Translations under genes and position numbers: made by a program | IMG/VR virus record: IMGVR_UViG_3300049737_000147 | Coordinates: 1-35,363 of that record | From: a virus | Strand: one strand, 5' to 3' | DNA length: 35,363 nt | In this document: positions 4,476 to 25,947 of the stretch, piece by piece | Position numbering within the stretch: the first letter of the stretch is position 1 | Layout of the letters: each line of letters begins with the position of its first letter | The notes under the pieces: generated by a model | Told to the model about the DNA's origin: nothing | The model's input: only the letters and a program-made list of their open reading frames with translations | The model's database searches: none

Positions 4476-4603
4476 AGACTATGTAGCCCACCGGGTACAT
4501 ATACATTTGCATAGCCGCCTTTTACCTTTAAGGTCTTTGAAGTGGGGCGACAAACTGGTTGACATTCAGAATCTTTGAAAATGTAGAACTATGAGTATAT
4601 ATA

Positions 4604-4620
4604 GGGGGGATGGGGGGTGG
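4604..4620 (+). other. G-run, possible quadruplex
   Basis: GGGGGGATGGGGGGTGG is two runs of six G and a final GG in an otherwise AT-rich region, just upstream of the palindrome cluster. A G-quadruplex could form on the plus strand or in the leader RNA. Only the base composition is seen; no function is implied. Confidence 0.35.
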
Positions 4621-4627
4621 TCACCTG

Positions 4628-4874
4628 CCTAGCCCTTCAAAGCTTTGAAGGGCTAGGAAGCCTAGAATACTTTAAAGTCTTGCAGACTTTAAAGTATTCT
4701 AGAAATCTACCGCCAGAGTCTCTAAAGATCTCTAAGATCTTTAGAGACTCTGGTTGCCAGACTCAGAAATCTTTAAAAATCTTTAGAGATTTTTAAAGAT
4801 TTTTAAAAAATCTATAAAAATCAAAGATTTTTTTAGATTTCACAGGCGCGTGTTGTAAAAACCTTAAGGTTTTT
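4628..4874. repeat. Cluster of six long unrelated palindromes
   Basis: Six inverted repeats stand head to tail: 4628-4657 (30-nt perfect palindrome, no loop); 4662-4702 (19-bp arms, 3-nt loop TGC); 4713-4753 (19-bp arms, loop CTA); 4767-4802 (16-bp arms, loop TTAG); 4808-4840 (15-bp arms with one mismatch, loop AAA); and 4857-4874 (18-nt perfect palindrome). Their sequences differ, so they are not copies of one repeat; only the geometry is shared. They lie inside the presumed leader of the rightward operon and could form strong RNA hairpins or DNA cruciforms. Confidence 0.9.
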
Positions 4875-4894
4875 AAGCCTAGCCAAATCGCTTA

Positions 4895-4950
4895 GTACTT
4901 CAAAACTTTAAAACCCCTCACTTGTGAGGGTTTTAAAGTTTATGAAGTAC
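4895..4950. repeat. Leader hairpin, copy A
   Basis: Two 27-nt arms flank a TT loop, with one bulged C (CCCC against GGG) and one small internal mismatch. The central 31 nt (4907-4937) are identical to 5731-5761 in copy B. A run of A before the GC stem and TTTT after it would also suit a weak bidirectional terminator or attenuator. It ends 72 nt before the ATG of the first early gene. Confidence 0.85.
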
Positions 4951-5004
4951 TTAAAGGCCCTCCGAAGCCGCTTCAAGCCGAAGGCTTGTGGCAACCAAAA
5001 CTTA

Positions 5005-5019
5005 CAATTCGGAGAATTG
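5005..5019 (+). promoter_or_regulatory. Ribosome-binding site held in a small hairpin
   Basis: CAATTC-GGA-GAATTG places the GGAG Shine-Dalgarno (5011-5014) in the 3-nt loop and closing base of a 6-bp stem, 8 nt before the ATG at 5023. A second hairpin with a 3-nt loop lies just upstream (CAAGCC-GAA-GGCTTG, 4974-4988). The arrangement decides the start codon and could make initiation depend on folding or on a bound protein. Confidence 0.6.
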
Positions 5020-5022
5020 ACT

Positions 5023-5442
5023 ATGGCGAAGCCAGACTTCAGCAAGATCCCAGCCTCTAAAGAGGCTTCACCCCGACAGATCTCAGCGATTGCAAATCGC
5101 TTTGCGAAGCTAACGAATCCAGAGGATTCGTGGATGCTGACCAAGAAATACACCGCAGTTCTTTACAGATTCCAAAAGGAATCTGGGAAGAACTTGACTC
5201 ACGGCGACATCCAGAAGTTCTTCAAAGTCTCTAAAGTTCCTAAGAACTTTAGTGACTTGCTCAGTACCGCTGAAGAGACTCCAAAGGAGTCTCCAAAGCC
5301 TTCAAAGAAGGCTCCCACTAAGACTTCTACGAAGTCTTCCAAGACACCGCCAAAAGTCTCTGAGGCTTCAGAGCTAAAAGCTCTGAAGAAGCAAGTCGCA
5401 GACTTGACTGCCGCCGTCCAGTTACTTCTGAAGAACTCTTAA
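5023..5442 (+). CDS. Hairpin-saturated early gene, small basic protein, paralogue 1
   Basis: The product has 139 residues. The first 85 form a compact helical domain with RQISAIANRFAKL, YTAVLYRFQKESG, LTHGDIQKFFKVSKVPKNF as landmarks. The rest is a Lys/Ser/Thr/Pro-rich tail (around 90-115, histone-H1-like) ending in a predicted helix, LKALKKQVADLTAAVQLLLK, suited to coiled-coil pairing. The N-terminal domain is clearly related to the product of 5833-6096. I recognise no named family. A nucleic-acid-binding role is inferred from the basic tail. The start at 5023 has a good GGAG and matches the paralogue. The coding sequence itself carries eleven perfect inverted repeats, and the stop codon lies inside a 24-nt palindrome. 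It is the first gene after the rightward promoter and is followed by a strong terminator. Confidence 0.85.
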   Translation: MAKPDFSKIPASKEASPRQISAIANRFAKLTNPEDSWMLTKKYTAVLYRFQKESGKNLTHGDIQKFFKVSKVPKNFSDLLSTAEETPKESPKPSKKAPTKTSTKSSKTPPKVSEASELKALKKQVADLTAAVQLLLKNS

Positions 5443-5452
5443 GAGTTCTTCA
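5052..5452 (+). repeat. Eleven perfect inverted repeats inside one coding sequence
   Basis: Positions, with arm length and loop: 5052-5067 (7, loop AA), 5085-5101 (7, GCA), 5114-5130 (7, AGA), 5166-5185 (8, AAAA), 5231-5252 (9, CTAA), 5275-5293 (8, AAA), 5297-5313 (7, AAA), 5320-5338 (8, TAC), 5366-5388 (10, AAA), 5392-5406 (6, GCA), and 5429-5452 (12, no loop, contains the stop codon). All arms are perfectly complementary and no two hairpins share a sequence. The series continues the cluster upstream of the gene without a break. Confidence 0.92.
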
Positions 5453-5464
5453 AAGTCTTCAAAG

Positions 5465-5489
5465 ACCCCAGCTTTGCTGGGGTTTTTTT
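5465..5489 (+). terminator. Intrinsic terminator after the hairpin-saturated gene
   Basis: ACCCCAGC-TTT-GCTGGGGT forms an 8-bp GC-rich stem with a 3-nt loop, followed by seven T (5483-5489). It lies 22 nt after the stop codon and should end most transcripts from the early promoter, or act as an attenuator before the next gene. Confidence 0.9.
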
Positions 5490-5522
5490 ATTTATAAACC
5501 CTAAACTCTAAAGGAGTTTTGT

Positions 5523-5702: not shown

Positions 5703-5793
5703 ACCGACTGAGGCTTTAGGGATTCTTAGTTTTAAAACCCCTCACTTGTGAGGGTTTTAAAACTTAGAAGCCCTTAGAGGACTGCCAGCCGGT
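5703..5793. repeat. Leader hairpin, copy B
   Basis: The inner stem pairs 5730-5745 with 5748-5762 around a TT loop, again with one extra C on the left arm. Its central 31 nt are identical to copy A. Weaker pairing continues outwards to ACCG (5703) against CGGT (5793). After the hairpin both copies continue with a related spacer (CCAAAACTT ... TTGGAGG here; CCAAAACTT ... CGGAG in copy A) to a start codon about 70 nt downstream. This shows that leader and gene were duplicated together. Confidence 0.85.
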
Positions 5794-5832
5794 TCTCATC
5801 CACCCAAAACTTCATTGCACTTGGAGGTGCTT

Positions 5833-6096
5833 ATGTCTCAGTTCGATTACACTACTCTCGACCCCAACAAACCTGCTTCATACCGTCAGTTTAACGGTGT
5901 TGCATATTACTTTGCTCAGTTGCACACCAAAGGTGACAAGACAAAAACATACATGGCAACTCGTATGTTCAAAGCTATCTTGTACAAGTTTTATAACGAG
6001 CAAGATATTCAAATGACTCATGGCGAGGCTCAAAAGTTCTTCAAAGCCAAGCGAGTTCCTGCTCAGTTTAAGAAGTTAATTACTATCCGTAAGTAA
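5833..6096 (+). CDS. Small protein, paralogue 2 of the early hairpin-saturated gene
   Basis: This 87-aa product starts at the ATG at 5833 behind GGAGGT. It aligns along its whole length with the N-terminal domain of the 5023-5442 product: PASYRQFNGVAYYFAQL against EASPRQISAIANRFAKL, FKAILYKF against YTAVLYRF, and MTHGEAQKFFKAKRVPAQF against LTHGDIQKFFKVSKVPKNF. The Lys-rich tail and C-terminal helix of paralogue 1 are missing. Its coding DNA has no inverted repeat with arms of 7 bp or more, which makes it a natural control. Function is unknown; the conserved THG--QKFFK block may be the functional core. Confidence 0.85.
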   Translation: MSQFDYTTLDPNKPASYRQFNGVAYYFAQLHTKGDKTKTYMATRMFKAILYKFYNEQDIQMTHGEAQKFFKAKRVPAQFKKLITIRK

Positions 6097-6916: not shown

Positions 6917-6984
6917 GTGGGCTTCTACGTCTTTAAAACCCCCTTACAGGGTAAGGGGTTTTAAAGACTTAAGAAGCCCCCCCA
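6917..6984. repeat. Leader hairpin, copy C (compensatory variant)
   Basis: The inner stem pairs 6929-6947 with 6951-6968 around AGG. An outer stem pairs GTGGGCTTCT with AGAAGCCC(CC)CAC. The design is that of copies A and B (TTTAAAACCCC stem, one unpaired extra C on the left arm) but the top of the stem is CCTTAC/GTAAGG instead of CCTCAC/GTGAGG. Both arms have changed together, which supports selection for pairing. It ends 25-40 nt before the next start codon. Confidence 0.8.
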
Positions 6985-7008
6985 CCGACGACGACACCGG
7001 AGAACGCA

Positions 7009-19781: not shown

Positions 19782-21641
19782 TTGGACGCCTATCAAGAAT
19801 ACATACACAAAAGTCGTTACGCACGATACCTTCCAAGTGAGGAGCGTAGAGAAACATGGAAAGAAACAATAACGCGCTACATTAAATATTGGGGAGATAA
19901 ACTCAATGATGATGAGCGTGTAGAAATATTTAAAGCTATCCACGATCTTGAAGTCATGCCGTCTATGAGGGCTTTGATGACCGCTGGTGAAGCATTAGAT
20001 CGTGACAACATGGCAGGATTTAATTGTAGTTATCTTGCTATTGATAGCCCACGTTGCTTTGATGAAATGATGTATGTTCTTATGTGCGGTACAGGTGTTG
20101 GTTATAGCGTAGAAGAACAATACGTTTCTAAACTTCCAGAGATCGCAGAGGATTTCCATGCAACAGATACAGTCATACACGTACCGGATTCAAAAGTTGG
20201 ATGGGCGAAATCGTTTAGGGAACTGGTATCGTTGTTGTATTCAGGTCAAATACCAGAATGGGATACATCTAGAGTTCGACCTGCGGGTGCCTCACTCAAA
20301 ACTTTTGGAGGTAGAGCAAGCGGCCCAGAACCTCTTATCGACCTCTTTAAATTTACAGTTAGATTATTTACGGGAGCGGCTGGACGAAAGCTTACGTCCC
20401 TTGAATGCCACGATCTTTGCTGTAAGATTGCTCAAATCGTCGTCGTCGGAGGAGTCAGACGATCAGCTTTAATTAGTTTATCTGATTTATCAGACGATGC
20501 ACTACGACAAGCAAAGCATGGAGCATGGTATAATACTGAGGCACAGCGTGGCCTTGCAAATAACAGTGCTTGTTATAATAGCAAGCCTTCTTTTGAATTA
20601 TTTTTAGATGAATGGAGAAGTCTTTATGAATCAAAAAGTGGAGAACGAGGAATCTTCAGTAGAGCCGCAAGTCAAAAACAAGCTTCAAGAAATGGTAGAA
20701 GAGATAGTGAAAGAGATTTCGGTACGAATCCCTGTTCCGAAATTATATTACGAAAATCCCAAACTTGCAACCTTTCAGAAGTTGTCGTCAGACCGGAAGA
20801 TACGGCTAGATCTCTTGGGAGAAAAGTACGTCTTGCAACTATCTTGGGTACTCTCCAAGCTACCCTCACGGACTTCCGATACCTCAGAGGAATCTGGAAA
20901 GCCAACACCCAAGAAGAGGCGCTCTTAGGAGTAAGCCTTACAGGTATTCTTGACAATCCTTTGCTTACTCTTGAGAACAAAGATCTTGATGGACTGCTTG
21001 AAAACTTACGTGACATAGCTATTGAAACAAATAAAGAGTGGGCAGAACGCTTAGGTATTTCTCAGAGTACAGCCATTACCTGTGTTAAGCCCAGCGGCAC
21101 AGTCTCTCAGTTAGTTGATTCTGCATCAGGTATCCACGGACGCTATGCACCATATTATATTCGTCGTGTTAGAGCAGATATGCGTGACCCTCTGTGTGCT
21201 GTCCTAGAAGACGCTGGCGTGCCTTGTGAGAAGGATAGTTTTTCACCCAGTACTAAGGTATTCTCCTTCCCTAAGAAGGCTCCAGAGAGCGCTGTGTTTG
21301 CCTCAGAGCAGACAGGGATGGAACAGTTAGAGTTATGGGCTAAGTACCAGAAGCATTGGTGTGAACACAAGCCTAGCATTACTGTATATTATCGTGACTC
21401 AGAGTTTCTGGAGATCGGTAATTGGGTCTACAACAACTTTGATGATATATCAGGTATATCTTTTTTACCGTATGACGAACACAGCTATGCTCAAGCACCA
21501 TATGAGCAAATAACAGAAGAGCAATACAATGAAATGGTTGAAGGATTTCCAACAGAGTTTGATTGGAATCTTAACGAGGCTGATGATTTTACTGAAGGAG
21601 CGCAAACACTAGCCTGTGTTGGCGGGGCTTGCGAACTCTGA
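19782..21641 (+). CDS. Ribonucleotide reductase, class II monomeric (adenosylcobalamin-dependent)
   Basis: 619 aa, TTG start 5 nt after GAGGAA. All cysteines of the Lactobacillus leichmannii-type reductase have counterparts at matching spacing: Cys82 and Cys329 (disulfide pair), Cys318 (thiyl radical, in TNPCSE with Asn316 and Glu320), and C-terminal Cys612/Cys617 (in CVGGACEL). The distances 318-329 (11) and 612-617 (5) equal those of 408-419 and 731-736 in that enzyme. It makes dNTPs from ribonucleoside triphosphates without oxygen dependence but needs B12 from the host. About 120 residues shorter than the bacterial protein. ATP/dNTP control may be reduced. Confidence 0.93.
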   Translation: MDAYQEYIHKSRYARYLPSEERRETWKETITRYIKYWGDKLNDDERVEIFKAIHDLEVMPSMRALMTAGEALDRDNMAGFNCSYLAIDSPRCFDEMMYVLMCGTGVGYSVEEQYVSKLPEIAEDFHATDTVIHVPDSKVGWAKSFRELVSLLYSGQIPEWDTSRVRPAGASLKTFGGRASGPEPLIDLFKFTVRLFTGAAGRKLTSLECHDLCCKIAQIVVVGGVRRSALISLSDLSDDALRQAKHGAWYNTEAQRGLANNSACYNSKPSFELFLDEWRSLYESKSGERGIFSRAASQKQASRNGRRDSERDFGTNPCSEIILRKSQTCNLSEVVVRPEDTARSLGRKVRLATILGTLQATLTDFRYLRGIWKANTQEEALLGVSLTGILDNPLLTLENKDLDGLLENLRDIAIETNKEWAERLGISQSTAITCVKPSGTVSQLVDSASGIHGRYAPYYIRRVRADMRDPLCAVLEDAGVPCEKDSFSPSTKVFSFPKKAPESAVFASEQTGMEQLELWAKYQKHWCEHKPSITVYYRDSEFLEIGNWVYNNFDDISGISFLPYDEHSYAQAPYEQITEEQYNEMVEGFPTEFDWNLNEADDFTEGAQTLACVGGACEL

Positions 21642-22810: not shown

Positions 22811-23077
22811 TTAATCTCCCGGTGGAAAGCCTAACATCTTCTCATTTGAAATTATCCAAGCCTTTGGGATTGCCAGTTCTGCATCACCCTGTACAGGCTT
22901 ACCATCTTCTAAAAGCATATGAGGACATATAATTATTATGTCATCGTCTTCGTGTATTATTATTCCGCATGAAACTGCTATGGCGGTTGTAATTTGTTTC
23001 AGTTCGCTAATGTCTCTCCAGCCTGTGTTAGCACCTCCAGAGGCATCGTGCCATACAACTTTGTGTATCGTTACCAC
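22811..23077 (-). CDS. Conserved-looking small protein, 88 aa
   Basis: ATG at 23077, overlapping the large upstream gene by 7 nt. It reads VVWHDASGGANTGWRDISEL, then IAVSCGIIIHEDDDIIIICP, and a final IPKAWIISNEKM. The W-D-x-x-G---GW plus S-G-(I/V)-I pattern recalls small beta-rich proteins present beside virion genes in marine phages. Function unknown. Confidence 0.7.
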   Translation of the reverse strand: MVTIHKVVWHDASGGANTGWRDISELKQITTAIAVSCGIIIHEDDDIIIICPHMLLEDGKPVQGDAELAIPKAWIISNEKMLGFPPGD

Positions 23078-25947
23078 TTGACCTTATCAGCCCAGTAAGC
23101 CGCTGACATATTGCCACGCTTGATGTTCTTTCTGTGACGGGCTTTGAAGCTCTTGCGCTTGGCTTTCATACGCTTAGATTCACCAGCCTTTGGCTTGCCA
23201 GCAGTCTTAGCACCTTGCTCACCAAAACGGATTATCTTTTCTTTACCGTCTTTGCAGGCTTTGACAACGTGAGACTTTTTAGGGTGGCTTGCTGTGCGCT
23301 TAGGCTTGTTACAGGCCATCTTCTTCTTGTCGATCTTGCCACCTTTGGCAACGTCAATTCTACCTTTAAAGTTAAAACCATAGGCATCTTCGTCTTCTGA
23401 AATGTCTTGGCCTAAATAAGTTAATTTAGAATAATCATCTTTAGGATTTGCCCTGCCCTGCGCTGTACTTTTTGATTTATCAAAATCATATCTATCTGGC
23501 AATACTTCAAACTGCCCCTCTGATGTTTCTTTAAAATTAAACGCGCCTAACGATGTAAACATTTCAAACACAGGATCAGTAAAAGATGCTTTTGCTAAAT
23601 CATATACGTTAGTGTCTGCTCGTTTTTGTTTATAAAAATCATTTACTGCTTGACCATCTGCCATTGTTGGGTAGTCTTTATATGTTACATAACTTCGTCC
23701 ATCTTTTTTGGCATTCAACATTGCATTTTTTAGTACAGTTTGTTGTTGTTGTCCCAAACTACCAACATCTATATCATCACCGTCACGCTGTAATCCTAAA
23801 ACATTACCTAATAAAAATTTTCCAAAAGCTTTTGCGTTGGTAGGAATTATAGTTATTCCGGTTCCTTTTTTCTCAGGGGGCTGTTCTTTTGTCTTTTGTA
23901 CCGCTACCGCTCTTATACCAGTGCGCTTTGGCTCTTCTCTCTGCACAGGCTTTCTTACTTCACGCCTAGCAGGTTGAGCTTGAGGTTTAGCTTCTGATCC
24001 TAAAACTAATGTGTCACCAGCACGGATACGGTCTGGGTTTTTTATGTTATTAAGCTTAACAAGATCAGCTATGCTTACACCAGTGTCTCTAGAAATGTGA
24101 GAGAGCGTGTCACCTTTTTTTATAACGCGGCTTGCTGGCCTTTTTACTTCATCTTGGTCACTCATAAGCTTTGAAAAGAAACCTATGACGCCGCCTTCTG
24201 CCGCACCAAAACGCTTATCATTAGGATCAAAACGTCTTGCGCTAACGGCCTTCCACTGCTCTGGCTTAAAAAGAATATAAGAATAGTTATCTGGGTCTGT
24301 TGTAAAAGAAGGTTCTACTTGGTTTACATATTGAATACTGTCAAAGCCATAGCTTTCTACAAATTTTCTGAAGTCTTGATGTAATCCCGCAAGTTCCATA
24401 GACATTGCTTGAGCTTGTTCAAATTGTGAAATACTTGAAATTTCTATATCTCTAGACGTTCGAGAAAGCATCTGTGCTTTTTCATTTAATTTTTTAAATG
24501 GTATAGATTTTGATAAGCTTTCTCTGGAAGTGTTTAATTGAACAGCCATTGCATCAAGAAACATATCAATGCCGCCGTTGTCAAAAATAGAATCGTCTAA
24601 AAGAGCACCTTTATCAAATAGAGTTTCAATTTTCCAACTGCCATCATTGCCAATTTTCAAAGGGTTTTTAACATTTACATAACCTTTTTGTATTGAGGCA
24701 GGACGAACATTACTACCATAAACATTGTCTCCCCAACCACGCATTTGACCAAGTAATTTAGCAACAGCCTTTACTTCGTGTTCCAAAAGAAGGTTATCTC
24801 TAGTTGTGTTGCCTGTTTCCATACCTAAATACTGAGTAGCAACAGCCTCTATAATTTCTTCCCAGCCGGTAAGAGGCTTTTCGCCTATGCGCCTTCTACC
24901 AACGGCGGTTATTTCTTCGGGCCTTGTATCAAAGTTATCAAGCTGACCTTTTTCTGCAATACTGAGTTTGGTGTAGGCTTTTAAATCGTTAGGGTCTAAT
25001 TCCAAGTCTCGTAGAAAATCATCTAGATAAGAATTAACTTGCAAAGTTAAGTCGTAAATTTTATTAAAGTCTTCTGGCTTTATATACAGACCGGCCTTTT
25101 CAAAAGTTTCTCCAAGCTTGTTTCCTTCAATGCCCATTGAAAACAAAGCCATATGCTTACCAAATTCATTATCATCTACCAGAGCTTTTAATCCAAAATA
25201 ATTTGCTTGCCCTAGTGTACCAACGTGGGGGCCAATTTCGTTTGTCATCCAGAAACGAGCGTCCCACTCTGTATCTTGAAGCGAGCTTACGCCACGAAAT
25301 TGTGGACGCTTTTCAACACTCTCAGCTAAAAAATCTTCAAGGGCTTTTTCTTTATTTTCTATTTGAGCAGGAAGTTTTTTCATCTGTGTAGATAAATCAT
25401 CAAAATCTGGCATAGACTCACGCAAGTTTTTATATTCAGGCATTCCTTTCAGAGTAGCAATTGCCCTAGTTAAAACTTTTTCTCTACCATTCTCTGACAG
25501 CAAGCGATTGTTTTCGGCCTTACCAAGACGAGCAGATAAATAATTATATAAAGCTCTGTCAACTTCAGGATCATAATCCTGCGCCTCATCTGCTGAATTA
25601 AACTGACTTTTATACACATTAAATGTTGAACCTTCTAAATCAACATCAACCATTTTTTCTAGTTGAGTAGCGATAGAATAGTCAACGTCTTGCTCTAGTA
25701 CCATGTCTTCTATTTCAGGATCTAGTTTTTGAGAGCTTCCTCCCGCAGAATAATGTCTTGCATATTTTTCAACATAATCTGCTAATTCTGTTGAATCAAC
25801 ATCTACATCAGGATTAAGAAATAAACTAGACTCTAACTTTTCGGTCGAGGTTTTTATTTTTTCAGCAACTTTAGTTTCGTCAAATAGATTATCTGCACCA
25901 GCTACGATGCCTCTTGTAATTATTTTTGTGAGTGCGCCTATTGCCAT
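23071..25947 (-). CDS. Large virion protein with ART-PolyVal-like, LysM and basic C-terminal domains
   Basis: 958 aa, ATG at 25947 sharing a base with the upstream stop. N-terminal 200 residues are helical and acidic. Residues about 212-577 look like an ART-PolyVal ADP-ribosyltransferase-type domain: FRGVSSLQDTEWDARFW, GPHVGTLGQANYFG, GYVNVKNPLKIGNDGSW (422-438), and FDSIQYVNQVE ... YSYILFKPEQWKAV (535-568) with RRFDPND after it. A LysM peptidoglycan-binding domain follows (about 606-649, VIKKGDTLSHISRDTGVSIA and DRIRAGDTLVLG). The last 90 residues are Lys/Arg-rich with KACKDGKEKIIRFGEQGAKT and MSAAYWADKVKW, a module seen in other marine phages. Probably ejected with the genome: LysM for wall contact, the ART-like domain for modifying a host protein. 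Confidence 0.8.
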   Translation of the reverse strand: MAIGALTKIITRGIVAGADNLFDETKVAEKIKTSTEKLESSLFLNPDVDVDSTELADYVEKYARHYSAGGSSQKLDPEIEDMVLEQDVDYSIATQLEKMVDVDLEGSTFNVYKSQFNSADEAQDYDPEVDRALYNYLSARLGKAENNRLLSENGREKVLTRAIATLKGMPEYKNLRESMPDFDDLSTQMKKLPAQIENKEKALEDFLAESVEKRPQFRGVSSLQDTEWDARFWMTNEIGPHVGTLGQANYFGLKALVDDNEFGKHMALFSMGIEGNKLGETFEKAGLYIKPEDFNKIYDLTLQVNSYLDDFLRDLELDPNDLKAYTKLSIAEKGQLDNFDTRPEEITAVGRRRIGEKPLTGWEEIIEAVATQYLGMETGNTTRDNLLLEHEVKAVAKLLGQMRGWGDNVYGSNVRPASIQKGYVNVKNPLKIGNDGSWKIETLFDKGALLDDSIFDNGGIDMFLDAMAVQLNTSRESLSKSIPFKKLNEKAQMLSRTSRDIEISSISQFEQAQAMSMELAGLHQDFRKFVESYGFDSIQYVNQVEPSFTTDPDNYSYILFKPEQWKAVSARRFDPNDKRFGAAEGGVIGFFSKLMSDQDEVKRPASRVIKKGDTLSHISRDTGVSIADLVKLNNIKNPDRIRAGDTLVLGSEAKPQAQPARREVRKPVQREEPKRTGIRAVAVQKTKEQPPEKKGTGITIIPTNAKAFGKFLLGNVLGLQRDGDDIDVGSLGQQQQTVLKNAMLNAKKDGRSYVTYKDYPTMADGQAVNDFYKQKRADTNVYDLAKASFTDPVFEMFTSLGAFNFKETSEGQFEVLPDRYDFDKSKSTAQGRANPKDDYSKLTYLGQDISEDEDAYGFNFKGRIDVAKGGKIDKKKMACNKPKRTASHPKKSHVVKACKDGKEKIIRFGEQGAKTAGKPKAGESKRMKAKRKSFKARHRKNIKRGNMSAAYWADKVKW

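Follow-up and report, generated by a model that had tools for sequence, protein, structure and literature searches.

Small perfect hairpins form a conserved array from the leader to beyond the stop codon of the first early gene in uncultured phages

INTRODUCTION

Why should the coding sequence of a phage gene be filled with perfect inverted repeats? The question is raised by the first early gene (gene 1) of IMG/VR virus record IMGVR_UViG_3300049737_000147, all 35,363 nt of which were analyzed here and are referred to as the window. An initial annotation, made from the sequence alone, had described eleven such repeats in about 430 nt of this gene. It had offered as explanations a structured mRNA that resists nucleases or controls translation, hairpins acting in the DNA, autoregulation by the gene's own product, or template switching by the phage polymerase.

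RESULTS

Extent and parts of the array

All eleven repeats were present where the initial annotation had placed them, the one at 5114 being better given as 5113. The feature itself proved to be about twice as long as described (4628-5487). It comprises some 20 small perfect hairpins across the leader and gene 1, about 0.9 kb in all, beginning a few nucleotides downstream of a promoter-like block and running through an untranslated leader of about 400 nt, the Shine-Dalgarno sequence, the gene and its stop codon to an intrinsic terminator. Loops are 3 or 4 nt long in about 93% of the hairpins, and the stems of the leader are longer (arms of 13, 19, 19 and 16, plus shorter ones). RNA of positions 4610-5490 folds at -384 kcal/mol, compared with -226 for shuffled sequences (z -20.35). 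The parts of the locus are as follows.

4559..4620, + strand: promoter-like block, TTGACA (4559) ... TATATATAGGGGGGATGGGGGGTGG (4596-4620), unique in the window; putative promoter
4628..5019, + strand: untranslated leader with the long hairpins of the array; helices 2, 3, 4, 8, 9 and 10 have pairs changed on both sides
4628-4657, 4662-4702, 4713-4753, 4767-4802 and 4816-4832, + strand: first five leader hairpins
4856-4875, about 4900-4945, 4974-4988 and 5005-5019, + strand: remaining leader hairpins
5005-5019, + strand: Shine-Dalgarno GGAG inside the hairpin CAATTC-GGA-GAATTG
5023..5442, + strand: gene 1, 139 aa
5052-5067, 5085-5101, 5113-5131, 5166-5185 and 5231-5252, + strand: first five hairpins of the coding sequence, conserved and covarying in relatives, with synonymous constraint
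5275-5293, 5297-5313, 5320-5338, 5366-5388 and 5392-5406, + strand: last five hairpins of the coding sequence, likewise conserved, covarying and under synonymous constraint
5429..5452, + strand: hairpin TGAAGAACTCTTAAGAGTTCTTCA, a 24-nt palindrome across the stop codon, with three-way covariation in relatives (helix 24)
5465..5490, + strand: intrinsic terminator ACCCCAGC-TTT-GCTGGGGT with a T run behind it, where the array ends on the right
5727..5775, + strand: separate intergenic hairpin TTTTAAAACCCCTCAC..GTGAGGGTTTTAAAA, probably outside the array and of the kind preceding several early genes
5833..6096, + strand: hairpin-free paralogue, 37% identical to gene 1

The 5' half of the stop-codon hairpin encodes the C terminus of the protein, and its 3' half is untranslated. 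Only the last hairpin (5465-5483) is G+C rich and lies directly before a T run; the others were rejected as intrinsic terminators or attenuators. The promoter-like block recurs with its exact pattern in 12 related contigs, whether or not hairpins follow it. At 4602-4620 of the window a G-rich run, GGGGGGATGGGGGG, is conserved directly 3' of the TATATATA box, and in most relatives it is followed by a conserved stretch of the CCTGCC type.

Hairpins like the one at 5727..5775 are repeated before genes in the relatives L026, L037 and L038. Long intergenic hairpins with arms such as CTTAG..TTTTAAAACCCC/GGGGTTTTAAAA..CTTAG precede several early genes and are repeated within and between genomes (window, 5712-5790 and 6925-6985; L037, 7865-7945; L038, 6920-6985, 7575-7650 and 7870-7945); they are perhaps RNA-processing or regulatory signals.

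The excess of hairpins over chance and codon usage

Ten repeats with arms of at least 7 bp and loops of up to 4 nt were counted over 5023-5462, the same number as in the initial annotation. Such repeats could in principle be an artefact of codon usage, since AAG/CTT and TCT/AGA are complementary codons in a Lys/Ser-rich protein. Codon composition does raise the expected count, and the analytic expectation of 0.13 given in the annotation was 4- to 7-fold too low (0.6 to 0.9 from shuffling and resampling), but its conclusion of an excess holds. None of 10,000 codon-preserving shuffles of 5023-5462 reached 10 repeats (mean, 0.89; maximum, 5), nor did any of 10,000 versions whose codons were redrawn according to the codon usage of the phage (mean, 0.58; maximum, 5). 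Moreover, the untranslated leader shares the feature, and the array is conserved in at least 13 relatives. Chance or codon usage was therefore rejected, and we regard its probability as negligible. A genome-wide mutational bias was rejected as well: beyond the array, the window has perfect repeats at about the chance level (Markov expectation), and counts outside arrays were near that expectation in 11 genomes including the window, G009 being somewhat higher.

The carrier phages

The terminase of the window shares 66% identity with that of Pelagibacter phage HTVC115P and 51% with its counterpart in HMO-2011, and the DNA polymerase of the window shares 49% with the polymerases of HTVC103P/104P/115P. 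The genome is laid out as in those Pelagibacter phages, with the late genes on one strand and the early genes on the other, and the array lies at the switch in gene direction, which is also the GC-skew minimum. No hairpin cluster was found in the parts examined of the genomes of HTVC115P, HTVC103P, HMO-2011, HTVC033P, CRP-1, CRP-235 and ctYwJ313. Many contigs of uncultured phages related to HTVC103P/104P/115P, most of them marine, carry arrays. In G001, a nearly whole 50-kb genome, the sole evident gap is the array, suggesting that assemblies tend to break there. The ends of G001 correspond to about 4990 and 5715 of the window, and many IMG/VR contig ends lie in or beside the array. Elsewhere in the window, 19782-21641 encodes a ribonucleotide reductase with a B12-dependent (class II) insertion domain (Pfam PF21995, PF02867), and 23071-25947 (- strand) encodes a virion-type protein of 958 aa in which a LysM-like stretch, VIKKGDTLSHISRDTGVSIADLVKLNN, was recognized by eye.

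Conservation and covariation of the stems

Relatives with 69 to 80% protein identity each carry 8 to 10 such hairpins in the gene. The initial annotation had proposed that homologues be searched for compensatory changes, and these were found: 23 pairs had changed on both sides (62 cells), whereas sliding the partners by 1 to 3 columns left 0 to 4 such pairs and column shuffles gave 13. Covariation is plainest in the stop-codon stem, which reads GAAGAACTC/GAGTTCTTC, GAAGCTCTC/GAGAGCTTC or AAGCAGATCTC/GAGATCTGCTT (coding half/untranslated half) in different phages. For the comparison of wobble positions, stems were defined from the window sequence alone, which avoids circularity. In codons for the same amino acid, wobble positions differed in 3.0% of cases within stems and in 30.9% outside them, and in the N-domain the values were 0.3% and 26.3% (Fisher p 6e-7). 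Overall, conservation at wobble positions was 10 to 100 times stronger in stems than elsewhere. These comparisons of related sequences indicate that the hairpins are preserved by natural selection, even within the coding part. G.U pairs were not preferred over A.C mismatches (17 versus 21 events); since the phage's own terminators likewise show no preference (2 versus 3), the wobble test has no power to separate RNA from DNA.

Gain and loss of arrays in other lineages

L037 (protein 38% identical) and L053/L054 (about 40%) have arrays of their own, with different sequences, over leader, gene and stop. In three lineages (the clade of the window, L037 and L053), the array runs from just past the promoter-like block to the terminator. 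In L063-L068 and L073, most hairpins lie in the leader, and the gene itself shows a moderate excess. L066 carries about 50 hairpins (arms of at least 6) over the leader and several other early genes, 2.4 kb in all; its gene 1 homologue has essentially none, and its array ends without a strong terminator. The array is thus not tied to the gene 1 protein. A search for relatives of the first gene of L066 returned L066 only.

Arrays were absent from L038/L039, L046/L047, L055-L062, L069-L072 and L108/L109/L113/L117. Several array-free relatives, including the sisters L038/L039, keep the same promoter block, gene and terminator, which suggests that any benefit of the hairpins is conditional. Homologues without hairpins had been named in the initial annotation as grounds for refutation, and those in L038/L039 are of this kind; they confirm that the protein does not require the hairpins, as the annotation had argued, but this does not make the hairpins a product of chance. 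The pattern of presence and absence, together with L066, indicates that the array comes and goes and follows the first early transcript rather than the protein. Among the shared genes of 11 genomes, none tracked the presence of the array as a candidate hairpin reader.

Just upstream of the first gene, several relatives share a conserved, structured-looking block, TGCGCATAATGCG ... GGAGCTTGAC ... CTGTAGCTTTG ... GGCTGGCGGC (L046, 4320-4420; L055, 1660-1760; L066, 2520-2640), for which there was no Rfam match. In L066, a repeated element, GTGTTAT.GGGC.TTGACAGCTC...GGCTCGRCGGGRGCC, stands before early genes (4772-4870, 5823-5900 and 5970-6040) and is possibly a promoter or a structured leader.

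A short core shared by hairpins with different stems

The repeats had been described as sharing no sequence. Their stems do differ, but a core, CTYYARAG, recurs around or beside many of the loops: 15 of its 26 + strand matches in the whole 35 kb fall within 4600-5490, and the coding sequence holds 7, compared with a mean of 1.1 and a maximum of 6 in codon shuffles. Leaders of hairpin-free sisters carry the same core, typically as ACTCCARAGT, and it is many-fold enriched in most of them. There it is strand biased (39 versus 6, p 5e-7), lying mostly on the coding strand, which would suit a single-stranded + product. Core sites are often spaced 18 to 24 nt apart, but periodicity is weak, as is the evidence of helical phasing (for motif copies, p 0.03 uncorrected; for hairpins, p 0.09). 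We infer that the array grew out of an older, repeated element of the leader, of which it is a more elaborate version.

Loop inversions and double changes

Where homologous triloops differed at all three bases, 4 of 8 were exact reverse complements (p 1e-4). The inverted triloops are CTA/TAG and GAA/TTC and, inside the gene, AGA/TCT and AAA/TTT, the latter two changing Glu or Lys to Leu. L006 and L008, which are 99.7% identical, differ by a CTA-TAG flip, and L029 and L033 by a GAA-TTC flip (genomes 99.4 to 99.7% identical). Inversion of loops between near-identical genomes indicates that the hairpins form in DNA too. Assembly error is a possible source of flips in palindromes of 19 to 20 bp and an unlikely one in stems of 7 to 10 bp. 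Double changes without intermediates were observed in stems. A template-switch mechanism that both creates and maintains hairpins has been published (PMC8794818), and its hallmarks, exact loop inversion on an unchanged stem and instantaneous paired changes, are present in the array. The flips are the mark that template switching or cruciform processing leaves in a sequence, and the former probably contributes to the upkeep of the hairpins.

The gene 1 protein

The protein is predicted to consist of a helical N-domain (17-82), a disordered Lys/Ser/Pro linker (84-112) and a coiled coil (114-138). Its family is core, being found in 11 of the 11 compared genomes. Gene 1 had no Pfam, PHROG, PDB or BFVD relative above the cut-off, and no match to an initiator or DNA-binding family in those searches. 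In L035/L025/L036, the Lys/Ser/Pro linker varies in length through the gain or loss of entire hairpin modules (such as AAGCCTTCTACGAAGGCTT, KPSTKA; AAGACTTCAAAGAAGTCTT, KTSKKS), as if the hairpin were the unit of duplication. The paralogue at 5833-6096 had been claimed to be free of hairpins, and none was found there; its RNA folds little better than shuffled sequences (z -1.24).

DISCUSSION

We propose, with slightly less than even confidence, that the hairpin array is a selected RNA structure of the first early transcript, comprising the leader and gene 1. Host RNA polymerase would make this first transcript, which would fold at once into about 20 short stem-loops with loops of 3 to 4 nt. 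Recognition would be mainly by shape, such that stem sequence is free if both arms change together while the short core CTYYARAG recurs. The folded RNA might serve as a multivalent platform for an RNA-binding protein, candidates being the gene 1 family protein or a host factor, and/or as a shield of the first message against decay or RNA-cutting host defence. Template switching at the DNA level would supply new or repaired hairpins and flip their loops. We infer the transcript, rather than the DNA, as the level of action, and with it the benefit and the identity of the partner. An RNA role is favored by the strand bias of the core, by array ends that match promoter and terminator in three lineages and by the indifference of the hairpins to start and stop codons. 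The stable predicted fold, the synonymous constraint and covariation of the stems, the separate arrays of divergent homologues, the near-uniform loop size, the chance level of repeats outside the arrays and the location of the L066 array on the first early genes also speak for a selected structure of the transcript. Several observations count against it: the Shine-Dalgarno sequence is buried in a hairpin, which is odd for a well-translated message; loop inversions point to hairpin events in DNA; G.U is not preferred over A.C, although that test lacks power; the L066 array ends without a strong terminator; and the sisters L038/L039 are hairpin free with the same gene, promoter and terminator. 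Of the options in the initial annotation, a structured mRNA is nonetheless the best supported, the nuclease resistance or translational control attached to it being candidate benefits. The L066 array, which lies on other early genes, makes autoregulation by the gene 1 product less credible as an explanation for all arrays.

The array might instead act in DNA, as a replication origin or protein-binding array that overlaps the gene of its own binder, in the manner of phage lambda. The palindromes would then extrude or form single-strand hairpins bound by a phage initiator, perhaps the gene 1 protein, and hairpin-free sisters would retain a plainer version in their repeated ACTCCARAGT sites. Watson-Crick pairing without an excess of wobble and the exact loop inversions are consistent with this, as are the persistence of repeated sites, often 18 to 24 bp apart, in the 400-bp untranslated leader even where hairpins are missing, the location at the gene-direction switch and GC-skew minimum, and the presence of the gene 1 family in all 11 genomes. 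We consider a DNA role credible and less likely than one in the RNA. Against it stand the lack of a single common sequence among the sites of one array, unlike iterons, the weak helical phasing, the coincidence of array end and terminator in three lineages, the strand bias of the core and the failure of gene 1 to match any initiator or DNA-binding family. The loop swaps between near-identical genomes, the double changes without intermediates and the published mechanism (PMC8794818) could also be read as signs of a functionless local hot spot at which template switching or fold-back priming makes perfect hairpins that the gene merely tolerates. Template switching accounts for the perfect pairing and the missing intermediates; it matches the arms of a stem but permits change, and does not account for the conservation of stem wobble positions or for the strict limitation of the hairpins to one transcription unit, beyond which repeats are at the chance level. 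Sister phages of the same organization lack hairpins altogether. Template switching, which the initial annotation had listed among its options, is thus credible as the supply of hairpins and not as their sole cause, and we regard a functionless hot spot as improbable.

The selected RNA structure that we prefer can be set beside several known systems. RNA viruses with genome-scale ordered RNA structure fold genome-wide. The array resembles them in having structure over coding sequence that is held by synonymous-site selection, and differs in residing in a double-stranded DNA phage, in extending over only about 0.9 kb (2.4 kb in L066) with the rest near expectation, and in consisting of discrete hairpins with 3- to 4-nt loops; it was not assigned to that class. 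The origin of phage lambda lies inside gene O, and its iterons share one sequence. Here, too, a nucleic-acid element lies within and beside an early gene that may encode its binding protein, but the hairpins share geometry and a short core, the spacing of that core is only weakly periodic, and gene 1 has no recognizable relative and no initiator homology was found. The hairpin promoters of phage N4 are few, with short stems and 3-nt loops, and are used by a giant virion RNA polymerase. The array has similar short stems and 3-nt loops able to form in phage DNA, but numbers about 20 hairpins, and no ORF of giant virion polymerase size was found: the largest were 1259 aa in the nearly complete G001 and 2144 aa in G009, and PF00940 was silent, as were its controls. 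REP and Rickettsia palindromic elements are copies of one mobile sequence. They too are palindromes within coding sequence, and mobile elements of this kind were rejected because stems in the array differ within and between genomes. Template-switch-made RNA hairpins, described as scattered events in rRNA and microRNA genes (Moenttinen and Loeytynoja, PMC8794818), are alike in their perfect stems, simultaneous compensatory changes and loop inversion. Unlike them, the array is dense, occupies one phage transcription unit and has strongly conserved stem sequence.

Rfam gave no match at the gathering score for the window and six related loci, and no description of such a hairpin array was found in the open literature, most subscription papers lying outside the search. 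There was no Pfam, PHROG or structural match either, and for most of the known systems that it partly resembles the array fails a defining test; we therefore class it as an element of a new kind. We put at about even the chance that it represents a new class of phage element, in which sequence-diverse, shape-conserved mini-hairpins extend over leader, coding sequence and stop, the protein has evolved to fit the stems, and arrays have arisen or been rebuilt several times, their geometry being what a phage or host factor would recognize early in infection. The array is an unusually clear case in which the shape of a nucleic acid, and not the protein, dictates coding sequence in a DNA phage, with amino acids and synonymous codons shifting in pairs that keep the stems even across the stop codon. 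It makes it possible to test in what way structured early transcripts or DNA hairpins may benefit a virus during the first minutes after infection, and how hairpins may be built by selection and template switching acting together.
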